Source: Kutzneria kofuensis
GTDB taxonomy: Bacteria > Actinomycetota > Actinomycetes > Mycobacteriales > Pseudonocardiaceae
Reading direction: 5' to 3'
Assembly: GCF_014203355.1 (NCBI RefSeq)
Contig: NZ_JACHIR010000001.1
Span: forward strand, 4,156,038-4,220,037
Length of the DNA: 64,000 nt
Each line of letters begins with the position of its first letter. The stretch's first letter is position 1. This document shows positions 22,750 through 33,622 of the stretch, in pieces. The translations under genes were made by a program, and so were the position numbers. The notes beneath the pieces are model-generated. The model made no database searches and had not been told where the DNA came from. It worked only from the letters and a program-made list of their open reading frames with translations.

Positions 22750-23403
22750 TCAGTGCTGTTCCGCGTCCAGGCCGTGCTCGATGGCGTAGCGGGCGAGCTC
22801 GACCCGGTTGTGCAGCTGGAGCTTGCGCAGCGTGGACTGGACGTGGTTCTCCACGGTCCGGTGCGATATGCCCAGCCGGGTGGCGATCTGCCGTGACGTC
22901 ATGCCCTTGGCCACCAGGCGCAGGACCTCGGTCTCGCGGTCGGTGAGCTCCGGCGTGGGCTCGGCCCCGGCCGGCTGCGCGGCCATCCGCCGGTACTCGC
23001 CGAGCACCAGGCCGGCCAGCCCGGCGGTGAACACCGCCGCGCCCTCGGCGGTGCGGTTGACGGCGTCGACCAGCTCCTCGACGGACGCGGACTTCAGCAG
23101 GTAACCGGAGGCGCCGGCCTTCACGGCCTCCAGCACGTCCTCGTGCTCGCCGCTGGCGGACAGCACCAGCACCCGCGTCTCGGGCCGGGTGGCGACGATC
23201 TGCTGGGTCGCCTCCACGCCGGTCTGCGCGCCGAGGTTGAGGTCCATCAGCACGACGTCCGGCCGGACGGTGCCGGCGATCCGCACCGCGGCCGCCGCGT
23301 CGCTGGCGGTCGCGACCACCTCGAAGCCCCGCTCCTGCAGGTCGCGGGCCACGCCGGCCCGCCACATCGGATGGTCGTCGACGACCATCACCGACACGCT
23401 CAC
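22750..23403 (-). CDS. NarL/FixJ-type response regulator (MacR-like)
   Basis: A 217-residue response regulator. The receiver domain has Asp9/Asp10 and the phospho-acceptor Asp54 in VLMDLNLG, with Lys in LLKSAS. The C-terminal LuxR-type helix-turn-helix (about residues 150-212) reads LTDRETEVLRLVAKGMTSRQIA. The start is GTG 23403, overlapping the stop of the sensor kinase gene (GTGA), so the pair is translationally coupled. The kinase resembles the MacS family, whose S. coelicolor system affects morphology and antibiotic production; equivalence here is inference. Confidence 0.9.
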   Translation of the reverse strand: MSVSVMVVDDHPMWRAGVARDLQERGFEVVATASDAAAAVRIAGTVRPDVVLMDLNLGAQTGVEATQQIVATRPETRVLVLSASGEHEDVLEAVKAGASGYLLKSASVEELVDAVNRTAEGAAVFTAGLAGLVLGEYRRMAAQPAGAEPTPELTDRETEVLRLVAKGMTSRQIATRLGISHRTVENHVQSTLRKLQLHNRVELARYAIEHGLDAEQH

Positions 23404-24557
23404 GCTTGTCCCCCCGTCGGCACGTGCAGTTCCCACTCGGTGCCCTCGCCGGGCCCCGTCGTCAGCTCAACGGTGCCACCCAGGTCGGCGATCCGTCCTC
23501 GAATCGACTGCGAGACGCCCAGGTGGCCCTCCGCCTCGGCGATGGCCAGCCGCCCGTCGGGAATGCCCACGCCGTCGTCACGGACGCTCAGCACCACCTC
23601 GTCGCCGAGGTCCTCCAGCAGCACCCACGCCCGCGCGCCGGGACCGGCATGGCGGTCCACATTGGACAGCGCCTCCCGTACGGCGGCGCTCAGCTCGCCC
23701 GCGGTCACCTGCGGCACCAGCACCGGAGTTGCCGGTGCGGCCACGGAGATCGTCGACGTGGCCATCAGCTGTATCCACTGCCGCAGATCCGTGTCGCCAT
23801 CCACAGTGGACTCCAACGGCCCGGAGGCGATCAGCGACCGCAGCGCGATCTCCTGCTCGCCGGCCAGCTCCGCGATCTCGGCGGCCTCGCCGCCGACCTC
23901 CAGCCCGCGCTTGCGCACCCGGGCCAGCACCTGCAGCACGCTGTCGTGAATGGACCGGGCCAGCCGCTCCCGCTCGGCGGTCGCGGCCTCGGTGCGCAGC
24001 GCCTGCCGCACCCGGGCCGCGGAGTTGCGGGTCGCCTCCGACGCGACGCCGACCACGAAGCTGACGCCGATCAGCAGCACGGTGTCCTCGGCGAGGTAGA
24101 TGTTGAAGTAGCCGCGCGGCAGTACGTTGGCCACGGCGGTGACGCCGCCGAACAGCAGCCCCCAGTACCGGCCGCCGTAGATCGCGCCGCCGACCGGCGC
24201 GCCGCTGGACCACAGGGTGGTGATCGTCTGCGCCCCGGACTGCATCTGGGCCGGGCCGACGATCGGCGCGGAGCTCAGCATCAGCACGGTGTTCAGCACC
24301 AGGTCGGCGATCACCAGCTGCGGTCGCCGACCGGCCGGCGTCAGGTAGAAGTACGTGAGCACCCCGGTCCACACGGTCATCACGGCCGCGACAACCCACG
24401 CGGCCCACTCGAGCCGGAAGGTGTGCAGGTTGAACCAGATGCTGGCCAATGCGAACACCCAGGTCACGATGCGTAGCACGATCACACCCCGCCAGAACGG
24501 CGTGGCCGGATCGTCGTCGGGCCTGATCCCCGGAATGGCTGGTCTGCGGTTCACCAC
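23400..24557 (-). CDS. Sensor histidine kinase, MacS-like (DUF5931 N-terminal domain)
   Basis: A 385-residue kinase of the HisKA_3 type. The N-terminal half has five to six membrane helices (DUF5931-like), beginning FWRGVIVLRIVTWVFALASI. The phospho-acceptor histidine is in RSIHDSVLQVLARV, and the HATPase part shows the N box LSNVDRHAG and G box VRDDGVGIP. I prefer the GTG at 24557, preceded by GGGAGGGAG, over the ATG at 24578, which has no proper spacing to a ribosome-binding site. It forms an operon with the response regulator and is divergent from a diguanylate cyclase. Confidence 0.87.
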   Translation of the reverse strand: MVNRRPAIPGIRPDDDPATPFWRGVIVLRIVTWVFALASIWFNLHTFRLEWAAWVVAAVMTVWTGVLTYFYLTPAGRRPQLVIADLVLNTVLMLSSAPIVGPAQMQSGAQTITTLWSSGAPVGGAIYGGRYWGLLFGGVTAVANVLPRGYFNIYLAEDTVLLIGVSFVVGVASEATRNSAARVRQALRTEAATAERERLARSIHDSVLQVLARVRKRGLEVGGEAAEIAELAGEQEIALRSLIASGPLESTVDGDTDLRQWIQLMATSTISVAAPATPVLVPQVTAGELSAAVREALSNVDRHAGPGARAWVLLEDLGDEVVLSVRDDGVGIPDGRLAIAEAEGHLGVSQSIRGRIADLGGTVELTTGPGEGTEWELHVPTGGQA

Positions 24558-24641
24558 CTGCTCCCTCCCCGCCGACATCCTGCCGTGACCGGGTGGTTGT
24601 CGGTATCCCTGACCGGTGGACTTCTGCTCGCCTGACGGTGT

Positions 24642-25877
24642 GTGCGACGCTCAAGACATCGGGTGACGATCGGATTGGCATTGCGCGACTGGTCGATGTG
24701 GACCCTGCCGAGGCCCGCGTTGGTCTACTGGATGTCGGTGGACCTCGCCGCACTGGCCGTCGGCGGCTACGTCATGGCCGCGACCGCCCCGCCCACGCTG
24801 GAGGACCTCGGGCGGTTCGGCGCGATCGCCTGCACCGGGCTGGTGGTCATCGTCATCACGGCGATCGCGACGCAGCTGTCCAACGAGACCCGGCGTAACC
24901 CGTGGGCGCTGCACATCTGCTACCTCTCGGCCGGCCTGCTGGTGCTGCCGCCGAACCTGGTGCTGCTGCTCCTGCTCGGCCCCGCCCTCTACGGCGTGCT
25001 GGGCCCCGGCCCGGACGCGCACCGCTGGCTGTTCACGCTGGCCGCGACCACGCTGTCGGTGTTCGCCGCCCGCGCCACCATCGGCTGGCAGCACCCGAAC
25101 TGGGACTTCGGCATGCTGGTGCTCGGCGGCATCGTGCTGCTGATGACCAGGGCCGTGCTGGTCGCCGTCGGCCTGCGGCTGCGCGCCCCGTCGGCCGGCG
25201 CGGACGAGGTGTTCGGCGAGCCGATCGACGTGGTGCTGGGCATCGTCGCGGCGAGCACCGGCGCGCTGATGGCGCTGGCGGTGCTGTCCGACCCGATCCG
25301 GGCGCTGCTCGCCGGGCCGCCGATGTTCCTGCTGGAACGGGCCGCGCAGCTGCCGCAGTGGCGCCGCTCCGCGCAGCGGGACGCCAAGACCGGGCTGTCC
25401 AACGCCGTGCACTGGGACCTGCGGGCCCGCGACGAGCTGGCCAAGGCCAGCGCGCGCCGGCGGCCGGTCGCGATGATGCTGCTGGACCTCGACCACTTCA
25501 AGCGGGTCAACGACCGGGTCGGCCACCTCGCCGGGGACGCGGCGCTGGCCGCCGTCGCCCGCGAGCTGCGCGGCAGCGTCCGCAGCGGCGACGTGGTCGG
25601 CCGGTTCGGCGGCGAGGAGTTCGTGGTGCTGCTGCCGGACACCGGCCCCGGCGTCGCCGAGTCGGTGGCCGAGCGGGTCCGGCACGCCATCTCGCTGCTG
25701 CGGGTGGCGACCACCGCCGCCGACGGCCAGGCGCACGTGCTGTCCGGCCTGACCGTCAGCATCGGAGTGTCTACTTCGGACCGTTACGGCTACGACGTGT
25801 CCGCGCTGCTGGTCGCGGCCGACTCGGCCCTGTTGTCGGCCAAGGGCTACGGTCGCAACCTGGTGGCGATGGCCTAG
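24642..25877 (+). CDS. Membrane diguanylate cyclase (GGDEF)
   Basis: A 411-residue protein with an N-terminal membrane region of about six helices and a C-terminal GGDEF domain (about residues 250-410). The active site is GGEEF in VVGRFGGEEFVVLLPD. The metal-binding DLDHFKRVND is intact. An inhibitory I-site RxxD (RSGD) lies exactly five residues before GGEEF, so it should make c-di-GMP under product control. The start may be GTG 24642 or GTG 24663; neither has a strong ribosome-binding site. c-di-GMP controls development in filamentous actinomycetes. Confidence 0.88.
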   Translation: MRRSRHRVTIGLALRDWSMWTLPRPALVYWMSVDLAALAVGGYVMAATAPPTLEDLGRFGAIACTGLVVIVITAIATQLSNETRRNPWALHICYLSAGLLVLPPNLVLLLLLGPALYGVLGPGPDAHRWLFTLAATTLSVFAARATIGWQHPNWDFGMLVLGGIVLLMTRAVLVAVGLRLRAPSAGADEVFGEPIDVVLGIVAASTGALMALAVLSDPIRALLAGPPMFLLERAAQLPQWRRSAQRDAKTGLSNAVHWDLRARDELAKASARRRPVAMMLLDLDHFKRVNDRVGHLAGDAALAAVARELRGSVRSGDVVGRFGGEEFVVLLPDTGPGVAESVAERVRHAISLLRVATTAADGQAHVLSGLTVSIGVSTSDRYGYDVSALLVAADSALLSAKGYGRNLVAMA

Positions 25878-27014
25878 CTACTTGCCATGTCCCGGTTCCA
25901 CCTTGGGCGGCCGGGTCGGGTCCACTTCGGACGGATCGATGCCCTGGTCGTGCAGCAGCGACCGGATGCCCGAGTTCAGCACGGCCAGGATCGGCACGGA
26001 CATCAGCGCGCCGGCGATGCCGCCGAAGGTGAAGCCGGCGGCGATCACCAGCACCACCGCCAGCGGGTGCAGCTGCACCGCCCGGCCCAGCAGCAGCGGC
26101 TGCAGGATGTGGCTCTCCAGCTGCATCACCGCGATCACGATGGCCAGCACGATCAGCGCCGACACGAAACCCTTGGCCACCAGGGCCACCAGCACCGCGA
26201 CGGTGCCGGCGATCACCGCGCCGACGATCGGGATGAACGCGCCGAGGAACACCAGCGCGGCCAGCGGCACCGCCAGTGGCACGCCGACGATGGCGATGCC
26301 GACTCCGATGCCGACAGCGTCGACCACCGCCACGGCGGCGGTGGCCCGCACGTAGCGCACCAGGGAGGCGAAGCCGCGACGGCCGGCCAGGTCCACCCGC
26401 GGCCGCACGTCGGCCGGGATGATCCGGATCAGGAACGACCAGATGCCGCCGCCGTCGTGCAGGAAGAAGATCGTGGTGAACAGCACCAGCAACACGCCGG
26501 TGAGCAACTCGCCGAGGGTGGCGGCGGTGCTGAGCGCGCTGGTGGTGATGGTGAGCTGGTTGTCCTGGATCAGCTTGACGAGCTGGTTGGGCAGGTCGGT
26601 CAGCTGGGCCTCGGACAGGCGCAGCGGGGGGCCCTCCAGCCAGTCGGTGATCGCCTTGACCGACTGGGCCACCTGCTTCTGCAGGTCCGGCAGGCCACCG
26701 ACGAACGCGCTGATCACGCCGTACAGCACGCCGCCGACCACGGCGATGCCGCCGACGACGACGATCGCCGTCGCCACCCCGCTCGGCACCCGCCAGCGCA
26801 CCAGCTGGGCGACCGCCGGCGCCAGCAGCGCGGCCAGCAGCAGCGCCACGGCCACCGGGATGATCACCACCGCCAGGTAGCCGACGATCCACGAGATGAG
26901 CCAGACCGCGCCGGCCACGGCCAGCAGCCGCCAGCTCAGCGCGGCGCTGACCCGCAGCACCTTGGGCACGGACTGGCTGACGTCCTCGGGGCGGCCGGGC
27001 CGGGGCGAAGTCAC
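25878..27014 (-). CDS. AI-2E family transporter (PerM/TqsA-like permease)
   Basis: A 378-residue membrane protein with about eight helices. It has the family signatures LLAALLAPAVAQLVRWRVP in the N-terminal half and GIGVGIAIVGVPLAVPLAALVFLGAFIPIVGAVIAGTVAVLVAL in the C-terminal half (two stretches). The members export small molecules such as AI-2, or ions. The start is GTG 27014 (VTSPRPGRPEDV); the ORF continues upstream without a plausible start. It converges on the diguanylate cyclase, with the stop codons directly adjacent. Confidence 0.88.
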   Translation of the reverse strand: MTSPRPGRPEDVSQSVPKVLRVSAALSWRLLAVAGAVWLISWIVGYLAVVIIPVAVALLLAALLAPAVAQLVRWRVPSGVATAIVVVGGIAVVGGVLYGVISAFVGGLPDLQKQVAQSVKAITDWLEGPPLRLSEAQLTDLPNQLVKLIQDNQLTITTSALSTAATLGELLTGVLLVLFTTIFFLHDGGGIWSFLIRIIPADVRPRVDLAGRRGFASLVRYVRATAAVAVVDAVGIGVGIAIVGVPLAVPLAALVFLGAFIPIVGAVIAGTVAVLVALVAKGFVSALIVLAIVIAVMQLESHILQPLLLGRAVQLHPLAVVLVIAAGFTFGGIAGALMSVPILAVLNSGIRSLLHDQGIDPSEVDPTRPPKVEPGHGK

Positions 27015-27195
27015 ACGATCACCGTAGCCGCCGCGCCCACCCGCGGCACTGTTCACACCTTCAGGGGATCTTGCGGTGTCAAAGGTGCGGCGGCCGTTCG
27101 GAACTGACAATCTCTCGGCGTCGACATCACGGACGCCTCTCGCGCCCCTTCACCGATGTCGGTGTTTCCCCAGGCGAGCGGAAGAGGATCTTCAT

Positions 27196-28095
27196 TTGTC
27201 GACGGACGGGCACGTGATCACGGGGGGCGGCCGGCTGCGCCGCGCGCTCTCCCGTGCGCTGCTGACCGTCGGCGGCGCGGCCGGCCTGACGGCCGCCGCG
27301 TGGTGCCTCTCCACCGCCTGCGCGTCCGCGGGAACCCTCGGTGACCACCTCCCGGTGGCCAACCCGGTCAACCACGCGGTCGTGACGCAGGGCCACTCGC
27401 CGGAAACCGCATCAGCGGACAACGGGGTGCACGAGATGGCCCGCGCGGTCGCGACCGCCAGCAAGCCGGCCGTGAGCTCCCTCGACGAGCACCAGACCCT
27501 GGCGAGTGGGGCGAGCCTGCCCTCCTCCGCCGATTTCGACCGGTTCGCCCACCAGGTCCAGGACGACTTCGTCCGGGTGGGGCGGCACGTGGCCACGCCG
27601 GCCCCGTCCGCTCTGGTGGGAGACTCGGTGACCCTGGTGCGCCACGTGGTCCAGTTCCCGCTGGCCACGCTCCCGGTGCGGCTGCCGATCCCGGTGATCG
27701 GCGATCTCTCCGGCGCGTCCACGTCGACCGACGGCAGGCAGCAGCCCGTCTCCCCGACCGGGTCCGACCCGGCCGGCGCGACCGGCTCCGCCACGTCCGC
27801 GGCCTTCGTCGGCGCGTCCGCCGCCGCGTCCACCGTGCGGCACCCGCTGCCGCCGTACCGGAGCTCGGACCTGTCCGGCCCGAGGAACTCCACGCCGCTG
27901 CCGGCCGTGCCCGCCCAGGCGCCGTCGGCCCCCTGCTGCTTCGGACACGGTGGCCCCGGCACGCCCGGCGCCCCGACCTCCGGGCAGCTTCCTTTCGGCT
28001 CCACCCTCGGCGCCGCTGCGTACAGGTCCGTCGTGGCCACCTCGCAGTCGGTGTCCGTGTTGACCGGCAAGCAAGCCGGCATCACGCCTGACTGA
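27196..28095 (+). CDS. Secreted low-complexity protein of unknown function
   Basis: A 299-residue protein I do not recognise. TTG 27196 is preceded by GAAGAGGATC; GTG 27211 is an alternative. A signal peptide follows (RRALSRALLTVGGAAGLTAAA, cleavage near ACASA). The rest is Ala/Ser/Thr/Pro-rich, with two amphipathic stretches (about residues 95-170) and a central LPVRLPIPVIGDL. There is a CC pair near residue 255 and no membrane anchor or sorting signal. It lies 199 bp upstream of the giant repeat protein in the same orientation. Joint surface expression is possible but unproven. Confidence 0.6.
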   Translation: MSTDGHVITGGGRLRRALSRALLTVGGAAGLTAAAWCLSTACASAGTLGDHLPVANPVNHAVVTQGHSPETASADNGVHEMARAVATASKPAVSSLDEHQTLASGASLPSSADFDRFAHQVQDDFVRVGRHVATPAPSALVGDSVTLVRHVVQFPLATLPVRLPIPVIGDLSGASTSTDGRQQPVSPTGSDPAGATGSATSAAFVGASAAASTVRHPLPPYRSSDLSGPRNSTPLPAVPAQAPSAPCCFGHGGPGTPGAPTSGQLPFGSTLGAAAYRSVVATSQSVSVLTGKQAGITPD

Positions 28096-28191
28096 TTTCC
28101 GCGCGCGGCTGGCGGTCGCAGGGCAGTTCGCCCGCACCGTTTCCGGTCCGTGCGCGTTCTTCTGCGCCCGTCCAGCCGCGCTAACGACCCG

Positions 28192-28260
28192 GGATGCACC
28201 CACCCCCCTCAGCTAGGTGCATCCCACTTCCCCGGGTGGCCGTTGCCCCCGGTCACCCGT
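28192..28260 (+). promoter_or_regulatory. Two consecutive hairpins in the leader of the repeat-protein gene
   Basis: GGGATGCACC (28192-28201) is the exact reverse complement of GGTGCATCCC (28217-28226). CGGGTG (28234-28239) pairs with CACCCG (28255-28260). Both lie 35-100 bp before the ATG of the repeat protein. They may be a regulator site or leader-RNA structure. They do not match the c-di-AMP (ydaO) riboswitch consensus as I know it. Confidence 0.45.
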
Positions 28261-28294
28261 TAGCCCCGCAAGGGACATACCCGAAGGAGAAGTA

Positions 28295-31200
28295 ATGCAG
28301 ACGTGGGCGAAGCGCGGACTTCAGGCCGCGCTCCTCACCGGTGGCTTGATCGCCGTCGGCACCGGCGTCGCCAACGCCTCCGAGTCCGGGTCGGCTCACC
28401 CGCTGGGTGTCCCCGCCGCCGACCTGGTCGACGTCAACGTCAAGGTGCCGATCCACGAGACCAACAACCAGTTGGGCACCGTGCTGGGCCAGACCACCCT
28501 GCCGGGCATCAGCCAGACCGTGGGCACCCGCGAGCTCACCGGCAAGCTGGCTCCGCACCCGCTGGCGACGCAGGCGAAGAACATCCCCGTCGCCGTGCCG
28601 CAGAACATCAGCCGCGGCAACACCATCCCGATCGACCTGTGCGTGCCGGTCGACGTCTCCGGCAACGCCATCGGCGCCACCGGCGACGCCGCCACGTACA
28701 ACCGGTCGAAGGTCGGCTGCGAGGCCCAGTCGGTCACCGAGACCGACGGCAAGCACGGCTCGATCGCCGGCAACATCATCGCCGTCGACTACGGCCTGCC
28801 GATCCAGCTCGACAACAACGCGATCGCCGCCCTCGGCAACGCGGCCGCCGCCGGCACCGCCGACGCGTACACCGCCACCGGCACCACGCCGTACGTCAGC
28901 AACGGCGACAAGGGCACGCTGGCCGGCAACATCGTCGACGCCGCCCTGGGCACCCCGGTCCAGCTGACCGGCAACGCCATCGGCGTCGGCGGCAACTCGG
29001 AGACCGCCTCCAAGGCGGGCACCGACGTCGCCACCGGTGGGTCGCTGCAGAGCAGCGGCAACGGCGGCACCCTGTCCGGCAACCTGGGCGGCGTGCCGCT
29101 GGGCCTGCCGATCGAGGCCAACGGCAACGCGATCTCCTGGGTCGGCAACGCCGACGCCAAGAACGCCAGCCACGGCGCCGTGCAGGCCGGCGACACCAGC
29201 GACGGCTTCTACGCGCTGACCTCGGGCGACCCGAGCACGCTGTCCGGCAACATCGCGCAGGCGCCGATCGTCAGCAAGGTCCTGCTGGCCGGCAACGCGG
29301 TGTCCTGGATCGGCAACACCACCGCGCTCGGCGTCACCGAGAACGACCTGGTGTCCGGCGGCAAGGCCGGCACCACGGGAGTGAAGTCCACCGGCTCGGG
29401 CAACATCGTCGACCCCGAGGTCGCGCTGCCGGTCGAGGTCTTCGGCGACGGCGTCACCTGGATCGGCACCGCCGAGGCCGCCAACCTGAACAAGGTCACG
29501 GCCCTGGCCGGCGGCAACACCTACACCGACGGCGACAAGTCGACGCTGGGCGGCAACGACGCGGTCGCGCCGATCGCCGGCGCGGTCGACGTGTTCGGCT
29601 CGGGCGGCTCGCTGATCGGCAACGCCACCGGCACCGCGGGCAACCAGTCCTCGGTCGTCGACGGCGGCTACAACGGCACGCTGGGCAACAGCGCGGTCGG
29701 CGGCGGCAACATCGCCTCCGTCCCGGTGGCGCTGCCCGCCGAGATCTTCGGCGCGGGCGCCTCGCTGGCCGGCAACGCCGACGGCCTGGCCAAGGAGGTC
29801 AAGGACGTCGAGGCCGGCGACAAGACCAACACCAACGACGACCGCGGCACGGTCAGCAGCAACATCGCCTCGGTGCCGGTCACGGTCCCGGCGCAGGTCT
29901 TCGGCGACGCGGCCGGCCTGGTCGCCAACGTCAGCGGCGCCTCGCAGTCGCAGACCACCACCACCGCCGGCCACGACGTGGAGACCGACGGCGACAAGGG
30001 CAGCGCGTCCGGCAACGCCGCGCAGGTCCCGGTCTCGCTGCCGGCGCAGCTGTTCGGCGACACCGCCACCCTGGTCGGCAACGGCGACGCCATCGCCAAG
30101 GGCGTCACCAGCTCCACCGCGGGCGGCGACGTCGACGCGTCCGGCAAGGGCGGCTCCATCACCGGCAACATTGCCGACGTGCCGGTGGCCGGTGCGGTGC
30201 AGGGCTTCGGCGCTGCCATCGCCGGCGCGGGCGTGGACAACGCCACCGCCGCCAACCTGACCAGCTCGAACGCCGGTGGCACCGACACCACCAGCGGCCA
30301 GGGCGGCTCGGTGGCCGGCAACGTCGCACAGGCGCCGATGGCGCCGGTCGTCGGCGTGCTGGGTGACACCGTCACCGCCGCGGGCGTCGGCAACTCCGTC
30401 GCCGACAACAAGGTGTTCGACACCGCCGGCAAGGACGTCCTGACCAACGGGACCGAGTCCGCGATCTCCGGCAACGTGGCCAAGACGCCCGCTGCCGCGA
30501 CCGCGCAGGTGCTGGGCGACGCGGTGACCCTGGGCGGCATCTCCAACGCCCTGGCCCACAGCTACACCGACCCGTCGGCCGGTGGCGACACCACCACCTC
30601 CGGCAAGCTGGGCTCGGTGGCCGGCAACGTCGCGCAGGTGCCCGCCGCGGCCAACGCGCAGGTGATCAGCGACTCGGTGGGCGCGCTCGGCAACGCCGCG
30701 GACGACACCACCGCGTGGACCGGCAACTTCGCCGGCGGCAACACCCACACCACCGGCATGTTCGGCGCCATCTCGGGCAACCTGGCCCAGGTCCCGGCCG
30801 TCGCCAACGCCGAGGTGCTGGACGACGCCGTGGGCGCGGGTGGCCTGGCGTTCGACAGGAGCTCGACCTCGGCCATCAACACCGCCGGTGGCGAGGCCAC
30901 CACCTCGGGCGTGCTGGGCTCGGTCGCCGGCAACCTGGCCTCGGTGCCGGTCGTCGCCGACGCCCAGGTGACGCAGGACGCGGTGTCCGCCGCGGGCCAG
31001 GCGTTCCACGCCGGCGCGAACAAGGTCGTCGACCTGGCCGGTGGCGACGTCGCCACCAACGGCACGGGCGGCTCCATCTCGGGTGACCTGCTGCAGGCCC
31101 CGATCGCTGGGATCGCCGGTGTGTTCACCGACGCCGTGACGGTCGGGGGCATCTCGGCCACCAAGGGCATCAACGTCACCGACGTGGCGTCCGGCGGCCA

Positions 31201-31735
31201 CCAGACCACGGCCGGCCTGCACAAGACGCTGTCCGGGCTGAACGGCCACGCGCCGGTCGGCGCCCTGGTGCAGATCTTCAACGTGCCGCTGAAGGTGTTC
31301 GGGACCGCGCTCGCGCACGGCGTGAACGACACCTCCGCGGTCGTCGGCGAGGAGAAGCCCGCGCTCGACCTGCCGATCACCAGCCGTCACCTGCTCGGCG
31401 CGACCGAGCTGCCGACGATGCGCGACCTGCCCACCGAGGCCGGCCTGCCGCTGACCGGCATGGGCGTGGACAGCGTCATGGGCCTGTTCAACCTGCTGCC
31501 GATGGGCGGCCTGTCGCACGCGGTGCCGGGCCTGCCGGCGCAGGAGCGCGACCTGCCGTCGCTGACGGGCACGCTGCCCACGGACAACCTGATCCCGGGT
31601 GCGCACCTGGTGCAGGTGCCCGGCCTGGACGGCCTGCAGGTGCGGCCGAACGTGGCCGGCGGCGCCCGTGAGCTGCCGGGTCAGCAGCTGGTGACCGACC
31701 TGGGTGCGGTGACCAACGGGCTGCACATCGCCTGA
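28295..31735 (+). CDS. Giant secreted protein with about 18 chaplin-like tandem repeats
   Basis: A 1146-residue secreted protein with signal peptide (MQTWAKRGLQAALLTGGLIA, cleavage near ANASES). ATG 28295 has a good GAAGGAGA site. From about residue 105 to 1030 it consists of about 18 tandem repeats of roughly 52 residues, of form G(S/T)-x-(S/A)GN-x6-P-x-G/A-x-P-V-x3-GNA-x4-GNA, with Gly/Thr/Asp-rich spacers. The pattern SGN...P...PV...GN...GN is close to the chaplin consensus of Streptomyces, whose secreted peptides form amyloid on aerial hyphae. Only the first repeat has two cysteines, as in classic chaplins. The C-terminal 110 residues are Leu/Pro-rich and contain an internal LPLTG that is not followed by a membrane helix. 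Assignment to the chaplin family is by eye. Confidence 0.72.
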   Translation: MQTWAKRGLQAALLTGGLIAVGTGVANASESGSAHPLGVPAADLVDVNVKVPIHETNNQLGTVLGQTTLPGISQTVGTRELTGKLAPHPLATQAKNIPVAVPQNISRGNTIPIDLCVPVDVSGNAIGATGDAATYNRSKVGCEAQSVTETDGKHGSIAGNIIAVDYGLPIQLDNNAIAALGNAAAAGTADAYTATGTTPYVSNGDKGTLAGNIVDAALGTPVQLTGNAIGVGGNSETASKAGTDVATGGSLQSSGNGGTLSGNLGGVPLGLPIEANGNAISWVGNADAKNASHGAVQAGDTSDGFYALTSGDPSTLSGNIAQAPIVSKVLLAGNAVSWIGNTTALGVTENDLVSGGKAGTTGVKSTGSGNIVDPEVALPVEVFGDGVTWIGTAEAANLNKVTALAGGNTYTDGDKSTLGGNDAVAPIAGAVDVFGSGGSLIGNATGTAGNQSSVVDGGYNGTLGNSAVGGGNIASVPVALPAEIFGAGASLAGNADGLAKEVKDVEAGDKTNTNDDRGTVSSNIASVPVTVPAQVFGDAAGLVANVSGASQSQTTTTAGHDVETDGDKGSASGNAAQVPVSLPAQLFGDTATLVGNGDAIAKGVTSSTAGGDVDASGKGGSITGNIADVPVAGAVQGFGAAIAGAGVDNATAANLTSSNAGGTDTTSGQGGSVAGNVAQAPMAPVVGVLGDTVTAAGVGNSVADNKVFDTAGKDVLTNGTESAISGNVAKTPAAATAQVLGDAVTLGGISNALAHSYTDPSAGGDTTTSGKLGSVAGNVAQVPAAANAQVISDSVGALGNAADDTTAWTGNFAGGNTHTTGMFGAISGNLAQVPAVANAEVLDDAVGAGGLAFDRSSTSAINTAGGEATTSGVLGSVAGNLASVPVVADAQVTQDAVSAAGQAFHAGANKVVDLAGGDVATNGTGGSISGDLLQAPIAGIAGVFTDAVTVGGISATKGINVTDVASGGHQTTAGLHKTLSGLNGHAPVGALVQIFNVPLKVFGTALAHGVNDTSAVVGEEKPALDLPITSRHLLGATELPTMRDLPTEAGLPLTGMGVDSVMGLFNLLPMGGLSHAVPGLPAQERDLPSLTGTLPTDNLIPGAHLVQVPGLDGLQVRPNVAGGARELPGQQLVTDLGAVTNGLHIA
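28607..31355 (+). repeat. Tandem array of about 18 repeats of about 156 bp encoding chaplin-like units
   Basis: Each unit opens with codons for G(S/T)(I/L/V)(S/A)GN and recurs every 150-165 bp. The first five units are closest to a chaplin domain, with GN-A-(I/V)-x4-GN. Units 8-16 form a second group with VPVxxPAQVFGD or VPxxANAQV, which suggests at least two rounds of duplication. Confidence 0.8.
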
Positions 31736-31752
31736 GCCAGTTGACTGAGGGG

Positions 31753-31786
31753 ACCCCCGGGACAGCCACTCCCGGGGGTTCTTTCT
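31753..31786 (+). terminator. Intrinsic terminator after the repeat-protein gene
   Basis: ACCCCCGGGA pairs with TCCCGGGGGT around a 7-nt loop, followed by TTCTTTCT. It begins 18 bp after the stop. The T-run overlaps the stop codon of the convergent GGDEF gene. Confidence 0.85.
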
Positions 31787-32639
31787 ATGTGACGCGAAGT
31801 CTCTTCTCGACGTGCCCGACGACGGTGTGCGCGGGCGCGGAGCCGTCGCTGGTCGCCCAGCACACCCGCACCTTCGGGTGCAGCCGAACCTTGCCGACGA
31901 GCACCGCCCGCTCGGTCAGCTCCCGCACCCGGGCCGCGATCGGCTCGCCGGTGCCGCACGGGTGCTCCGCGACCACCGCGAACTCGTCGCCGCCGTAACG
32001 GGCCACGGTGTGGTCGTCGCGCAGCCCCTGGCGCAGCCGCCCGGCCAGCACGGTCAGCAGCCCGTCGCCGACATCGAAGCCGTGCTCGGCGTTGACCTCG
32101 GCCAGCCGGCGCACGTCCACCAGCACGAAGGTGCTCAGCGAGCCGTTGGTGCGGGACCTGGTCAGCGACTGTTCCAGCCGGTCCAGCAGCAGCGCCCGGC
32201 TGGGCAGTCCGGTCAGCGGGTCGATCAGCCCCCGGCTGTGCGGCACGTCGGTGTGCACCGGCTGCAGCACGGTGAGCACGCTCGGCCGGCCCCGGTGGCT
32301 GACGGCGTGGAAGTCGGCCCACAGCCGCGAACCGGCGATCCCGTCGCGCACCACCACCATCGGCACGGCGAGCCGGCCGTTGCCCCGCAACACCTGCGCG
32401 GCCAGCTCGGCGCCCTGCGGCAGCGGCGCGCCGGAGTCGTCGCAGGCCTGCCAGCCCGCGGGCCGCCGGTTGCCGAGCAGATCGGCCCTGCTGAGCCCGA
32501 GCAGATGCCCGGCCAGGCTGTTCGCCGCCAGCACCGCCCCATGTTCGTCCTGCAGCAGCACCCCAACGGGAAGCTCGGACACCAGCTCGTCCCAGACCGT
32601 CCCGGTGGTCGTCGGTGCCGCCGTGTCCACGGCACTCAT
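31785..32639 (-). CDS. PAS-GGDEF protein
   Basis: A 284-residue cytoplasmic protein. A PAS-like sensor is at about residues 18-125 (LPVGVLLQDEHGAVLAANSL), then a GGDEF domain from about 137 with LTGLPSRALLLDRL and the catalytic RYGGDEFAVVAE. The metal-site segment is VLVDVRRLAEVNAEHG, which keeps Asp and Asn but lacks the usual Phe-Lys. The RxxD inhibitory site is absent (RDDH at that place). It is likely a diguanylate cyclase or a degenerate c-di-GMP sensor. The ATG at 32639 has GAGGAAGG upstream. Confidence 0.83.
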   Translation of the reverse strand: MSAVDTAAPTTTGTVWDELVSELPVGVLLQDEHGAVLAANSLAGHLLGLSRADLLGNRRPAGWQACDDSGAPLPQGAELAAQVLRGNGRLAVPMVVVRDGIAGSRLWADFHAVSHRGRPSVLTVLQPVHTDVPHSRGLIDPLTGLPSRALLLDRLEQSLTRSRTNGSLSTFVLVDVRRLAEVNAEHGFDVGDGLLTVLAGRLRQGLRDDHTVARYGGDEFAVVAEHPCGTGEPIAARVRELTERAVLVGKVRLHPKVRVCWATSDGSAPAHTVVGHVEKRLRVT

Positions 32640-32746
32640 CCGGTTCGCACCTTCCTCAGCAGGGAGGTTTCCACAGTGAGCCTGCCCCCGAGGTGGCTCG
32701 TTAACAAGGGGCCCGATCCACCCGTACCGGTGATCTTTGGTGATAT

Positions 32747-33622
32747 TCAGGTGATCAGTGTCGCGAACAGGTCCGCCGAGACGATGGGGACGCCGTACCG
32801 GCGGGCCGTTCGTGCCTTGGTGGACATGGTTTCCGGGTCGGCGGCGACCAGCAGCGCGGTCTGCCGTGTGACATAGCCCGCATTGACCCGCAGTCCCGCC
32901 GCGAGTGCCCGTTCTACCAGCTCATGGCGGGGTTGTTCGGCCTGCCCGGTGAACACCACGAGGTCGCCGATGCGGAGTGAGGGAACCTCACCTGTGGGCA
33001 CCGGCGGCACGTAGCTGCCGCGCCGGTACTCGGCGACCTCGTCCGGCGGCAGCGTCGGCCAGCGCCAGGTTGACGCCGCGGCAAGCAGATCCGTCCACGG
33101 CTCGGGTCGGCCGGCCCGGCTCAGGTAGTGCGCGAGCAGACCGGCGGCGGCGTGGGCGTCGTCGAGCGCCGAGTGGGCGTCGCGCAGTTCGACGCCGGCC
33201 GCGTCGCAACTGGCCTTCAGCGACCGGCCACTGCGGTGCGGCAGATAGGCCGCGCCGAGCGCCATCGTGCACAGGCCCAGCTCCGACGACAGCGGCACCG
33301 GCAAGCCGAGTCGGTCGAACTCCGCGGCCAGGAACCGTGCGTCGAAGGCCAGGTTGTGCGCCACGACGACCCGGCGGGCCAACCGCGCCGCCAACGCGCC
33401 CGCCACCTGCGCGAACGACGGCGCGCGCCGGGCGTCGCCCGCGTTGATCCGGTGGATGTGCTGCGGCCCGAGATCACGGCCGGGATTGACCACCGTGCAC
33501 CACTCGTCGGTGATCACGCCGGTCCGGTCGACCGCCACCACGGCGACCTCGACCACCCGATCACGGCCGGTGGCCGCGAATCCCGTCGTCTCGACGTCAA
33601 CGACCGCATAGCCATCCGACAC
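32747..33622 (-). CDS. DEDDh 3'-5' exonuclease with C-terminal BRCT domain
   Basis: A 291-residue protein. The exonuclease fold (residues 1-170) has VVDVETTGF as Exo I, HNLAFDARFLAAEF as Exo II and HSALDDAHAAAGLL as Exo III, with the active-site His of the DEDDh type, as in the DNA polymerase III epsilon subunit. The C-terminal 80 residues form a BRCT-like domain (GDLVVFTGQAEQPRHELVE and TRQTALLVAADPETMSTKA). This domain pair is seen in actinobacterial DnaQ-like proteins and suggests DNA repair, not the replicative proofreader. Confidence 0.88.
   Translation of the reverse strand: MSDGYAVVDVETTGFAATGRDRVVEVAVVAVDRTGVITDEWCTVVNPGRDLGPQHIHRINAGDARRAPSFAQVAGALAARLARRVVVAHNLAFDARFLAAEFDRLGLPVPLSSELGLCTMALGAAYLPHRSGRSLKASCDAAGVELRDAHSALDDAHAAAGLLAHYLSRAGRPEPWTDLLAAASTWRWPTLPPDEVAEYRRGSYVPPVPTGEVPSLRIGDLVVFTGQAEQPRHELVERALAAGLRVNAGYVTRQTALLVAADPETMSTKARTARRYGVPIVSADLFATLIT

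Follow-up and report, generated by a model that had tools for sequence, protein, structure and literature searches.

The 64,000-nucleotide stretch of the Kutzneria kofuensis genome analyzed here (the window; contig NZ_JACHIR010000001.1, positions 4,156,038 to 4,220,037 of the forward strand) carries a gene, which we call the poly-chaplin gene, for a protein whose 17 clear repeat units and worn 18th unit very probably descend from the chaplin domain (PF03777). Chaplins, known mostly from work on Streptomyces, are a well-established functional amyloid. The window protein belongs to a family in the Pseudonocardiaceae whose members usually have 14 such units, and we give about an even chance to the reading that it is exported and serves the hyphal surface as a structural rod of covalently concatenated chaplin-type units. 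The parts of the gene are as follows.

28295..31735, + strand: poly-chaplin gene, 1146 residues, PF03777 E 2.8e-17
28283..28289, + strand: ribosome-binding site GAAGGAG, preceding the ATG at 28295
28295..28378, + strand: signal-like N-terminus MQTWAKRGLQAALLTGGLIAVGTGVANA, residues 1-28, the best-conserved part of the protein
28379..28609, + strand: spacer between signal and repeats, residues 29-105
28610..31363, + strand: repeat array, residues 106-1023, with 17 clear units of about 51 residues and a degenerate 18th
28610..28756, + strand: unit 1, the sole cysteine-bearing unit (C116, C142)
30611..31222, + strand: units 14-17, a putative Kutzneria-specific expansion relative to 14-unit relatives
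31364..31732, + strand: Leu-Pro-rich C-terminal tail with three RxLP motifs, without a sortase-type hydrophobic tail

The repeat units are very probably of chaplin descent

When the whole protein was searched with PF03777, it matched at 62.7 bits (cut-off 21; E-value 2.8e-17), with seven stretches at E<=1, and the cut-off was passed by 50 of 54 six-unit segments, that of the window protein included. With a profile of our own, made from 42 chaplin domains of one genus that we took to be Streptomyces and distinct from the Pfam model, all 18 units scored positive, the sum reaching 258.5 bits against a shuffled maximum of 21.3. Tested against 200 shuffles of itself, each of 14 units was unbeaten, while units 14, 16, and 17 were equalled once and unit 18 was equalled 19 times. 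A profile-profile comparison of the unit with the chaplin domain gave 96.9% probability over 33 columns, and the two have in common the pattern G-x-x-SGN-x(4)-P...P...GN...G. The preliminary description of this gene had proposed a relationship to chaplins and had named the lack of any chaplin profile match as the result that would speak against it; the PF03777 match is significant, so this objection does not apply, and the chaplin-profile and segment searches agree with it. We regard it as very improbable that an unrelated beta-solenoid surface protein has converged on a chaplin-like GN-P-GN pattern: single-unit Pfam scores lie near the cut-off and only 33 columns align, as convergence would allow, whereas the shuffle controls, the cysteine positions, and the intermediate proteins with three to eight units (both below) argue against it.

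Of the 18 units, 17 have the first GN (or SN/GD) and 9 the second (GN/GD); the third, present in 10, usually stands 7 residues after the second position, compared with 14 in chaplins. Where chaplins go on with NPAFGN-x-C, the units diverge and have a Gly/Thr/Asp stretch instead. Three GN motifs per chaplin domain are described in the accessible part of PMC13251363, and classical chaplins are given, in what was available of PMC5618241, as having one or two domains, a long form with a sortase signal, and two cysteines except in ChpE. The family described here resembles the long and short Streptomyces chaplins (ChpA-H, PF03777) in its signal-like N-terminus, its SGN...P...P..[C]GN core, a GN1-GN2 spacing of 15, and a hydrophobic core. 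It differs in having 14-18 units (18 in the window protein) rather than the one or two reported in that source (PMC5618241), in largely lacking the third GN and the per-domain cysteine pair, in the absence of a sortase tail, and in its hydrophilic linkers. Because it matches the profile and departs from classical chaplins in domain number, GN motifs, cysteines, and sortase signal, the window protein is, judged by its sequence, a PF03777-domain protein and not a classical chaplin. It is the sole PF03777 match above cut-off in its genome; a candidate second chaplin at C1:5168207 scored 20.5 bits, under the cut-off, and was rejected, no chaplin-like frame being seen there.

The units are old, divergent, and of nearly constant length

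Self-similarity of the protein peaked at an offset of 51 residues (z 23.6, against a maximum of 3.6 over 200 shuffles). An iterated unit profile, which was derived from the protein's own units and is hence partly circular, found 17 units at E<1e-15 and the 18th at E 0.015 (1.8 bits). The clear units span residues 106-976 and the worn 18th residues 978-1023; 15 of the 17 measure 50-52 residues, with unit 4 longer at 56 instead of 51. The count of about 18 units given in the preliminary description therefore holds if the degenerate unit is included, while the mean length of the 17 clear units is 51.2 rather than its 52. Identity between units averages 31% (range 14-51%, 136 pairs), so the units are old and not recent copies.

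The forward frame was read as coding because of its GC content by codon position (0.67/0.54/0.97, computed for the longer frame starting at 28217) and its substitution pattern. Compared with Kutzneria sp. 744, codon positions 1/2/3 carry 120/84/167 substitutions; the comparison with K. buriramensis gives a flatter 220/187/245 and weak support for the + strand. An antisense open reading frame (ORF) at 28253-31726 (1157 residues) is disfavored as a gene by the same two measures; the mirror frame is nearly open in relatives too (0-1 stops in six Kutzneria), and from these sequence features we take it as the usual high-GC mirror of the coding frame at 28295-31735. The frame of 1146 residues proposed earlier was thus confirmed, and its N-terminus looks signal-like. 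A signal peptide is predicted from the sequence of the N-terminus, and export of the protein appears near certain. Conservation of the N-terminus (mean share of the commonest residue) was 0.94, compared with 0.58 for units 1-13, a figure biased upward because MQTWAKRG was among the words used in the genome scan. A WAKRG...TGG pattern was present in 20 of 20 regions, namely locus L126 and 19 further regions that were chosen mainly for matches starting after residue 1, at least 7 of the 19 being records already in the scan.

The protein belongs to a Pseudonocardiaceae family usually of 14 units

The relatives studied are 80 of the 131 found by the genome scan, and we take them all to be from Pseudonocardiaceae save one record titled Nocardia sp. 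In the resulting 81 proteins, the number of units was 14 in 67, 18 in six (all Kutzneria), 15 in six, 13 in one, and 11 in one, the last coming from a short frame. The gene was present in seven of seven Kutzneria genomes, and a match at E<=1e-10 was obtained in 165 of 297 family genomes sampled, covering 28 of 46 genera. The earlier picture of an expanded poly-chaplin thus stands as regards its chaplin-related units but not as a lone giant. In comparisons with nine relatives, units 6-8, 10, 11, and 13 usually found their best match at the same or a neighboring place, and elsewhere the correspondence was less clear. The Kutzneria units 14-16 are most alike each other and unit 18 resembles the last unit of most relatives, from which we infer that four units were probably added in Kutzneria.

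Several loci stood out in the survey. At L016 and L017, both in one Kutzneria genome (G006), two weak extra matches lie close together, one of them with an in-frame TAG, which suggests a decayed second copy; the WAKRG...TGG survey gave no qualifying frame at either. At L075 (Tamaricihabitans halophyticus), a frame of 1009 residues with the N-terminus MQTWTKRG lies in tandem upstream, at about -5961 to -2932 from the gene. At L149 (G300), a 14-unit poly-chaplin lies within an open frame of 2170 residues, longer than most frames of the family.

The two cysteines of the window protein (116 and 142) both lie in unit 1, as the preliminary description had noted; across the 81 proteins (1160 units), the confinement to the first unit did not hold, and pairs occur mainly in units 1, 4, 6, and 7, varying by lineage. 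The cysteines sit inside units in 217 of 219 cases: exactly two in 102 units, one in 13, and none in 1045, and 11 of the 81 proteins have no cysteine at all. In the unit alignment, column 18 holds 74 cysteines, column 19 holds 22, and column 12 holds 6, and a second cluster lies around columns 31-39. The chaplin cysteine position is column 18, immediately ahead of the second GN; the six at column 12 match the six Kutzneria proteins, and the pair of the window protein is shifted from the chaplin positions. Pair spacing is 13-17 in 96 of the 102 and 26 in six (the pair of the window protein included), compared with 18 in chaplins. That the pairs sit in units varying by lineage fits one fold in which both positions are close, and their placement is, at the level of sequence, an independent sign of the chaplin relationship.

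Shorter multi-unit chaplin-like proteins occur in other actinobacteria

In a phylum sample of 198 genomes, PF03777 was detected in 9 (E<=0.001), and in a class sample of 394 it was detected in 99 (E<=0.003); only three of these 99 came from the window's own family, so the Pfam model sees this branch poorly. We then read 15 loci, 14 from the 16 class-sample genomes hand-picked for re-examination together with L105, and in 14 of them (L157-L159, L161-L170, and L105) found an ORF with 3-8 chaplin-profile domains; joining chaplin units is therefore not unique to the Pseudonocardiaceae family. They share with that family the kind of unit and its tandem arrangement, and several have a CGN...C pair at a spacing of about 15; they differ in having fewer units and in that 8 of the 14 end in an LAxTG/LPxTG sortase-type tail. 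Some of them, outside the family, carry many cysteines. By their sequences, they link the Pseudonocardiaceae family with classical chaplins, and what sets the family apart is its length (14-18 units in nearly all) and the absent anchor.

The accessible part of a 2013 review (PMC4255298) lists chaplin-like genes for Stackebrandtia, Thermobifida, Streptosporangium, Nocardiopsis, and Arthrobacter and notes none for Pseudonocardiaceae. Our searches of the open-licence literature turned up neither a described chaplin of more than two domains nor an account of the Pseudonocardiaceae family, which is not proof of absence.

The units are predicted to form a continuous beta-rod

The preliminary description had pointed to a structural model of the units as a check. 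AlphaFold2 (AF2) applied to six units (units 5-10) returned a confident beta-solenoid with a predicted local distance difference test score (pLDDT) of 96.6, and the score stayed at 92-98 in each ten-residue block with no dip at the linkers. On this model, it is fairly likely that 14 or 18 units would form one continuous beta-rod. The rival arrangement is that the units are separate small beads on flexible Gly/Thr linkers, forming cross-beta sheets only between molecules, so that the protein would be a multivalent cross-linker of a surface layer. In its favor, chaplins are described, in the available part of PMC5618241, as short single-domain proteins that self-assemble into fibrils; AF2 is reported, in what could be consulted of PMC11795689, to over-predict solenoids for perfect repeats, which weakens the solenoid model; and unit 4 has its 56 residues where 51 are expected. 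Against the beads stand the nearly invariant spacing (50-52 residues in 15 of 17 clear units), the absence of a linker dip in pLDDT, and the 31% identity between units, so that this is not the perfect-repeat case of over-prediction. We consider the beads a rather unlikely alternative to the continuous rod.

The top structural matches of the AF2 model are generic beta-solenoids. Searched with Foldseek, neither the whole model nor the six-unit segment had a match at E<=0.001. Assignment to a named beta-solenoid family was rejected, since besides the Foldseek result the VIA matches were generic solenoids and NCBIfam returned nothing for the window protein; on three relatives, NCBIfam gave only two sub-threshold matches, both in one of them. 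For the curli subunit CsgA (8c50), no sequence relation was found and the structural Z may reflect only a common arrangement. One chaplin domain, used as a query against the PDB, retrieved no chain.

A tagged partner protein lies upstream and recurs at a second Kutzneria locus

On the same strand upstream of the poly-chaplin gene lies a gene for a low-complexity protein, the partner, with a gap typically of 145-250 bases.

27076..28095, + strand: partner gene, with a signal-like N-terminal stretch and the end KQAGITPD; start uncertain, probably downstream of 27076
28191..28225, no strand assigned: perfect 10-bp inverted repeat with a 15-base loop and no T run after it, in the gap between the partner and poly-chaplin genes

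The partner in the window had no Pfam or NCBIfam match. Its C-terminal tail, Q(P/A)Gx(T/N)PD, was found in 67 of 68 called partner frames, in another frame at L064 (the one called locus that differed), and upstream in 12 of the 13 loci without a called frame, hence in 80 of 81 copies overall, the exception, L078, having only 52 upstream bases. The tail also lay within 700 bases in 16 of the 19 further regions, and it was not found at L126.

In the same genome, a second locus (L171:6876-9416; C1 at about 3.7589-3.7614 Mb, - strand) holds a partner-type protein with the tail ARRQPGITPD. It stands 144 bases ahead of a protein of 540 residues that starts MRTWMRRG and contains ERDLP/ERSLP (ERxLP) repeats and no chaplin units. 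The second partner was matched away from the first locus in six of seven Kutzneria genomes, with identity of at least 70% in five and 38% in G006; G005 gave only a weak match, to the first-locus partner. The tails of the poly-chaplin proteins contain RxLP 95 times in 80 proteins, compared with a mean of 12.6 and a maximum of 21 in 200 shuffles, and the motif was absent from the repeats. Because the median is one per tail (range 0-4, at least two in 28 of 80 proteins), this is a tendency and not a rule.

From these sequences, we read the arrangement as a two-gene secreted module of a tagged partner and a Leu-Pro-rich client, one client carrying a chaplin array, and the 540-residue locus with the second partner as a paralogous module of the same kind. 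Direct interaction of the poly-chaplin and partner proteins is conceivable, at somewhat less than an even chance.

The neighborhood includes a MacS-type kinase

The remaining features near the gene are the following.

22750..23436, - strand: LuxR-type response regulator beside MacS, MacR-like by position only
23400..24578, - strand: MacS-type sensor kinase (NF047322, 463.8 bits, cut-off 300)
24642..25877, + strand: GGDEF protein between kinase and transporter, match in 33 of 80 loci
25878..27110, - strand: AI-2E family transporter, match in 79 of 80 loci
28265..28274, + strand: CCC-GCAA-GGG mini-hairpin CCCGCAAGGG, three-pair stem and GCAA loop, ahead of the ribosome-binding site
31785..32639, - strand: downstream GGDEF protein, match in 34 of 80 loci, mostly downstream

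The LuxR-type regulator, the kinase, and the AI-2E transporter, each on the opposite strand, had best tblastn matches in 72, 75, and 79 of the 80 loci, counts that are limited by flank length and may include paralogues; the MacS assignment itself was made for the window kinase only. MacRS targets are reported, in the accessible text of PMC9739842, to include proteins that seemingly act in aerial-mycelium development. Exact copies of the mini-hairpin CCCGCAAGGG stand near the start codon in 40 of the 67 leaders, and the sequence occurs 58 times, both strands counted, across the 1.47 Mb of the 80 loci; it may act in translation or mRNA stability. For the region 26000-33000, an Rfam element was rejected, as the single match scored 18.6 bits against a cut-off of 40.

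Discussion

Taken together, these results may be accommodated by the following mechanism. A Sec-type leader would export the poly-chaplin protein; its 14 (most relatives) or 18 (Kutzneria) chaplin-derived units would form a single long, rigid rod with a beta-solenoid fold; and its Leu-Pro-rich tail, probably with the Q(P/A)Gx(T/N)PD partner, would hold or organize the rod at the hyphal surface, where we would place the protein. With all units of one chain in a single rod, one polypeptide would thus supply in cis the beta-stack that Streptomyces assembles in trans from one- or two-unit chaplins.

Besides the tendency of AF2 to over-predict, several observations weigh against such a surface rod. 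The units lack the NPAFGN/third-GN portion of the chaplin domain, and PF03777 on single units is weak, the best score being 30.5 bits where the top-scoring chaplins of the class reach about 100, so the units are a distant branch of chaplins. The repeat region is acidic (76 D/E and 29 K/R), and hydropathy over whole units, -0.32 to 0.51, is lower than the 0.49 averaged by chaplin domains. A C-terminal sortase anchor was looked for as a hydrophobic 19-residue window in the last 60 residues and was found in 0 of 81 proteins. The gene had no match at E<=1e-10 in 132 of the 297 family genomes, where few candidates were scored per genome and misses are possible. Lastly, a candidate MacR box sequence had no match at <=3 mismatches in the 64 kb, and therefore the putative link to development is one of position and not of a binding site; we hold a role at the hyphal surface in development to be evenly balanced, going by sequence and gene order.

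The absent sortase anchor and the less hydrophobic whole units tell against a simple chaplin-like coat. Sortase anchoring was set aside: the genome has five sortase matches, yet the poly-chaplin protein lacks the required tail, its LPLTG having no hydrophobic segment after it. CwpA and CwpB of Actinoplanes missouriensis are surface proteins of a non-Streptomyces actinomycete that have been compared with long chaplins; in the available portion of PMC13251363, they are sortase substrates, judged by their authors to be without chaplin domains. The 30-residue core of the unit averages a hydropathy of 0.62, compared with 0.49 for chaplin domains, and the remainder of the unit averages -0.55, and a structural rod with a hydrophobic core and hydrophilic linkers suits this profile better than a purely water-repellent coat does. 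An alternative is a hydrophilic matrix or adhesin rod, in which the chaplin-derived fold would serve attachment or biofilm rather than hyphal hydrophobicity; against it, the MacS synteny points to development, the structural matches are generic beta-solenoids, and the unit core matches a chaplin domain in hydrophobicity. We regard this alternative as unlikely and retain the hyphal-surface rod.

A bolder possibility, which we offer tentatively and hold to be doubtful, is that a chaplin fibril in one chain is run by a new two-gene extracellular system, consisting of a client with an MxTWxxRG leader and a Leu-Pro-rich tail and a partner whose Q(P/A)Gx(T/N)PD tag would be read by an unknown receptor. 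If this is true, the solenoid of divergent units would show in cis how single chaplins stack in trans, an arrangement for which we found no solved structure, and the second Kutzneria locus would show that the client need not contain chaplin units.

The family is probably part of a conserved surface-building system that has so far gone undescribed. A long natural concatemer of this kind, if it folds as one molecule, would offer a direct route to the geometry of chaplin stacking, and the partner with its conserved C-terminal tag is a separate lead. With the Pseudonocardiaceae family, the chaplin concept would come to cover a large antibiotic-producing group that includes Amycolatopsis, Lentzea, Saccharothrix, and Kutzneria.

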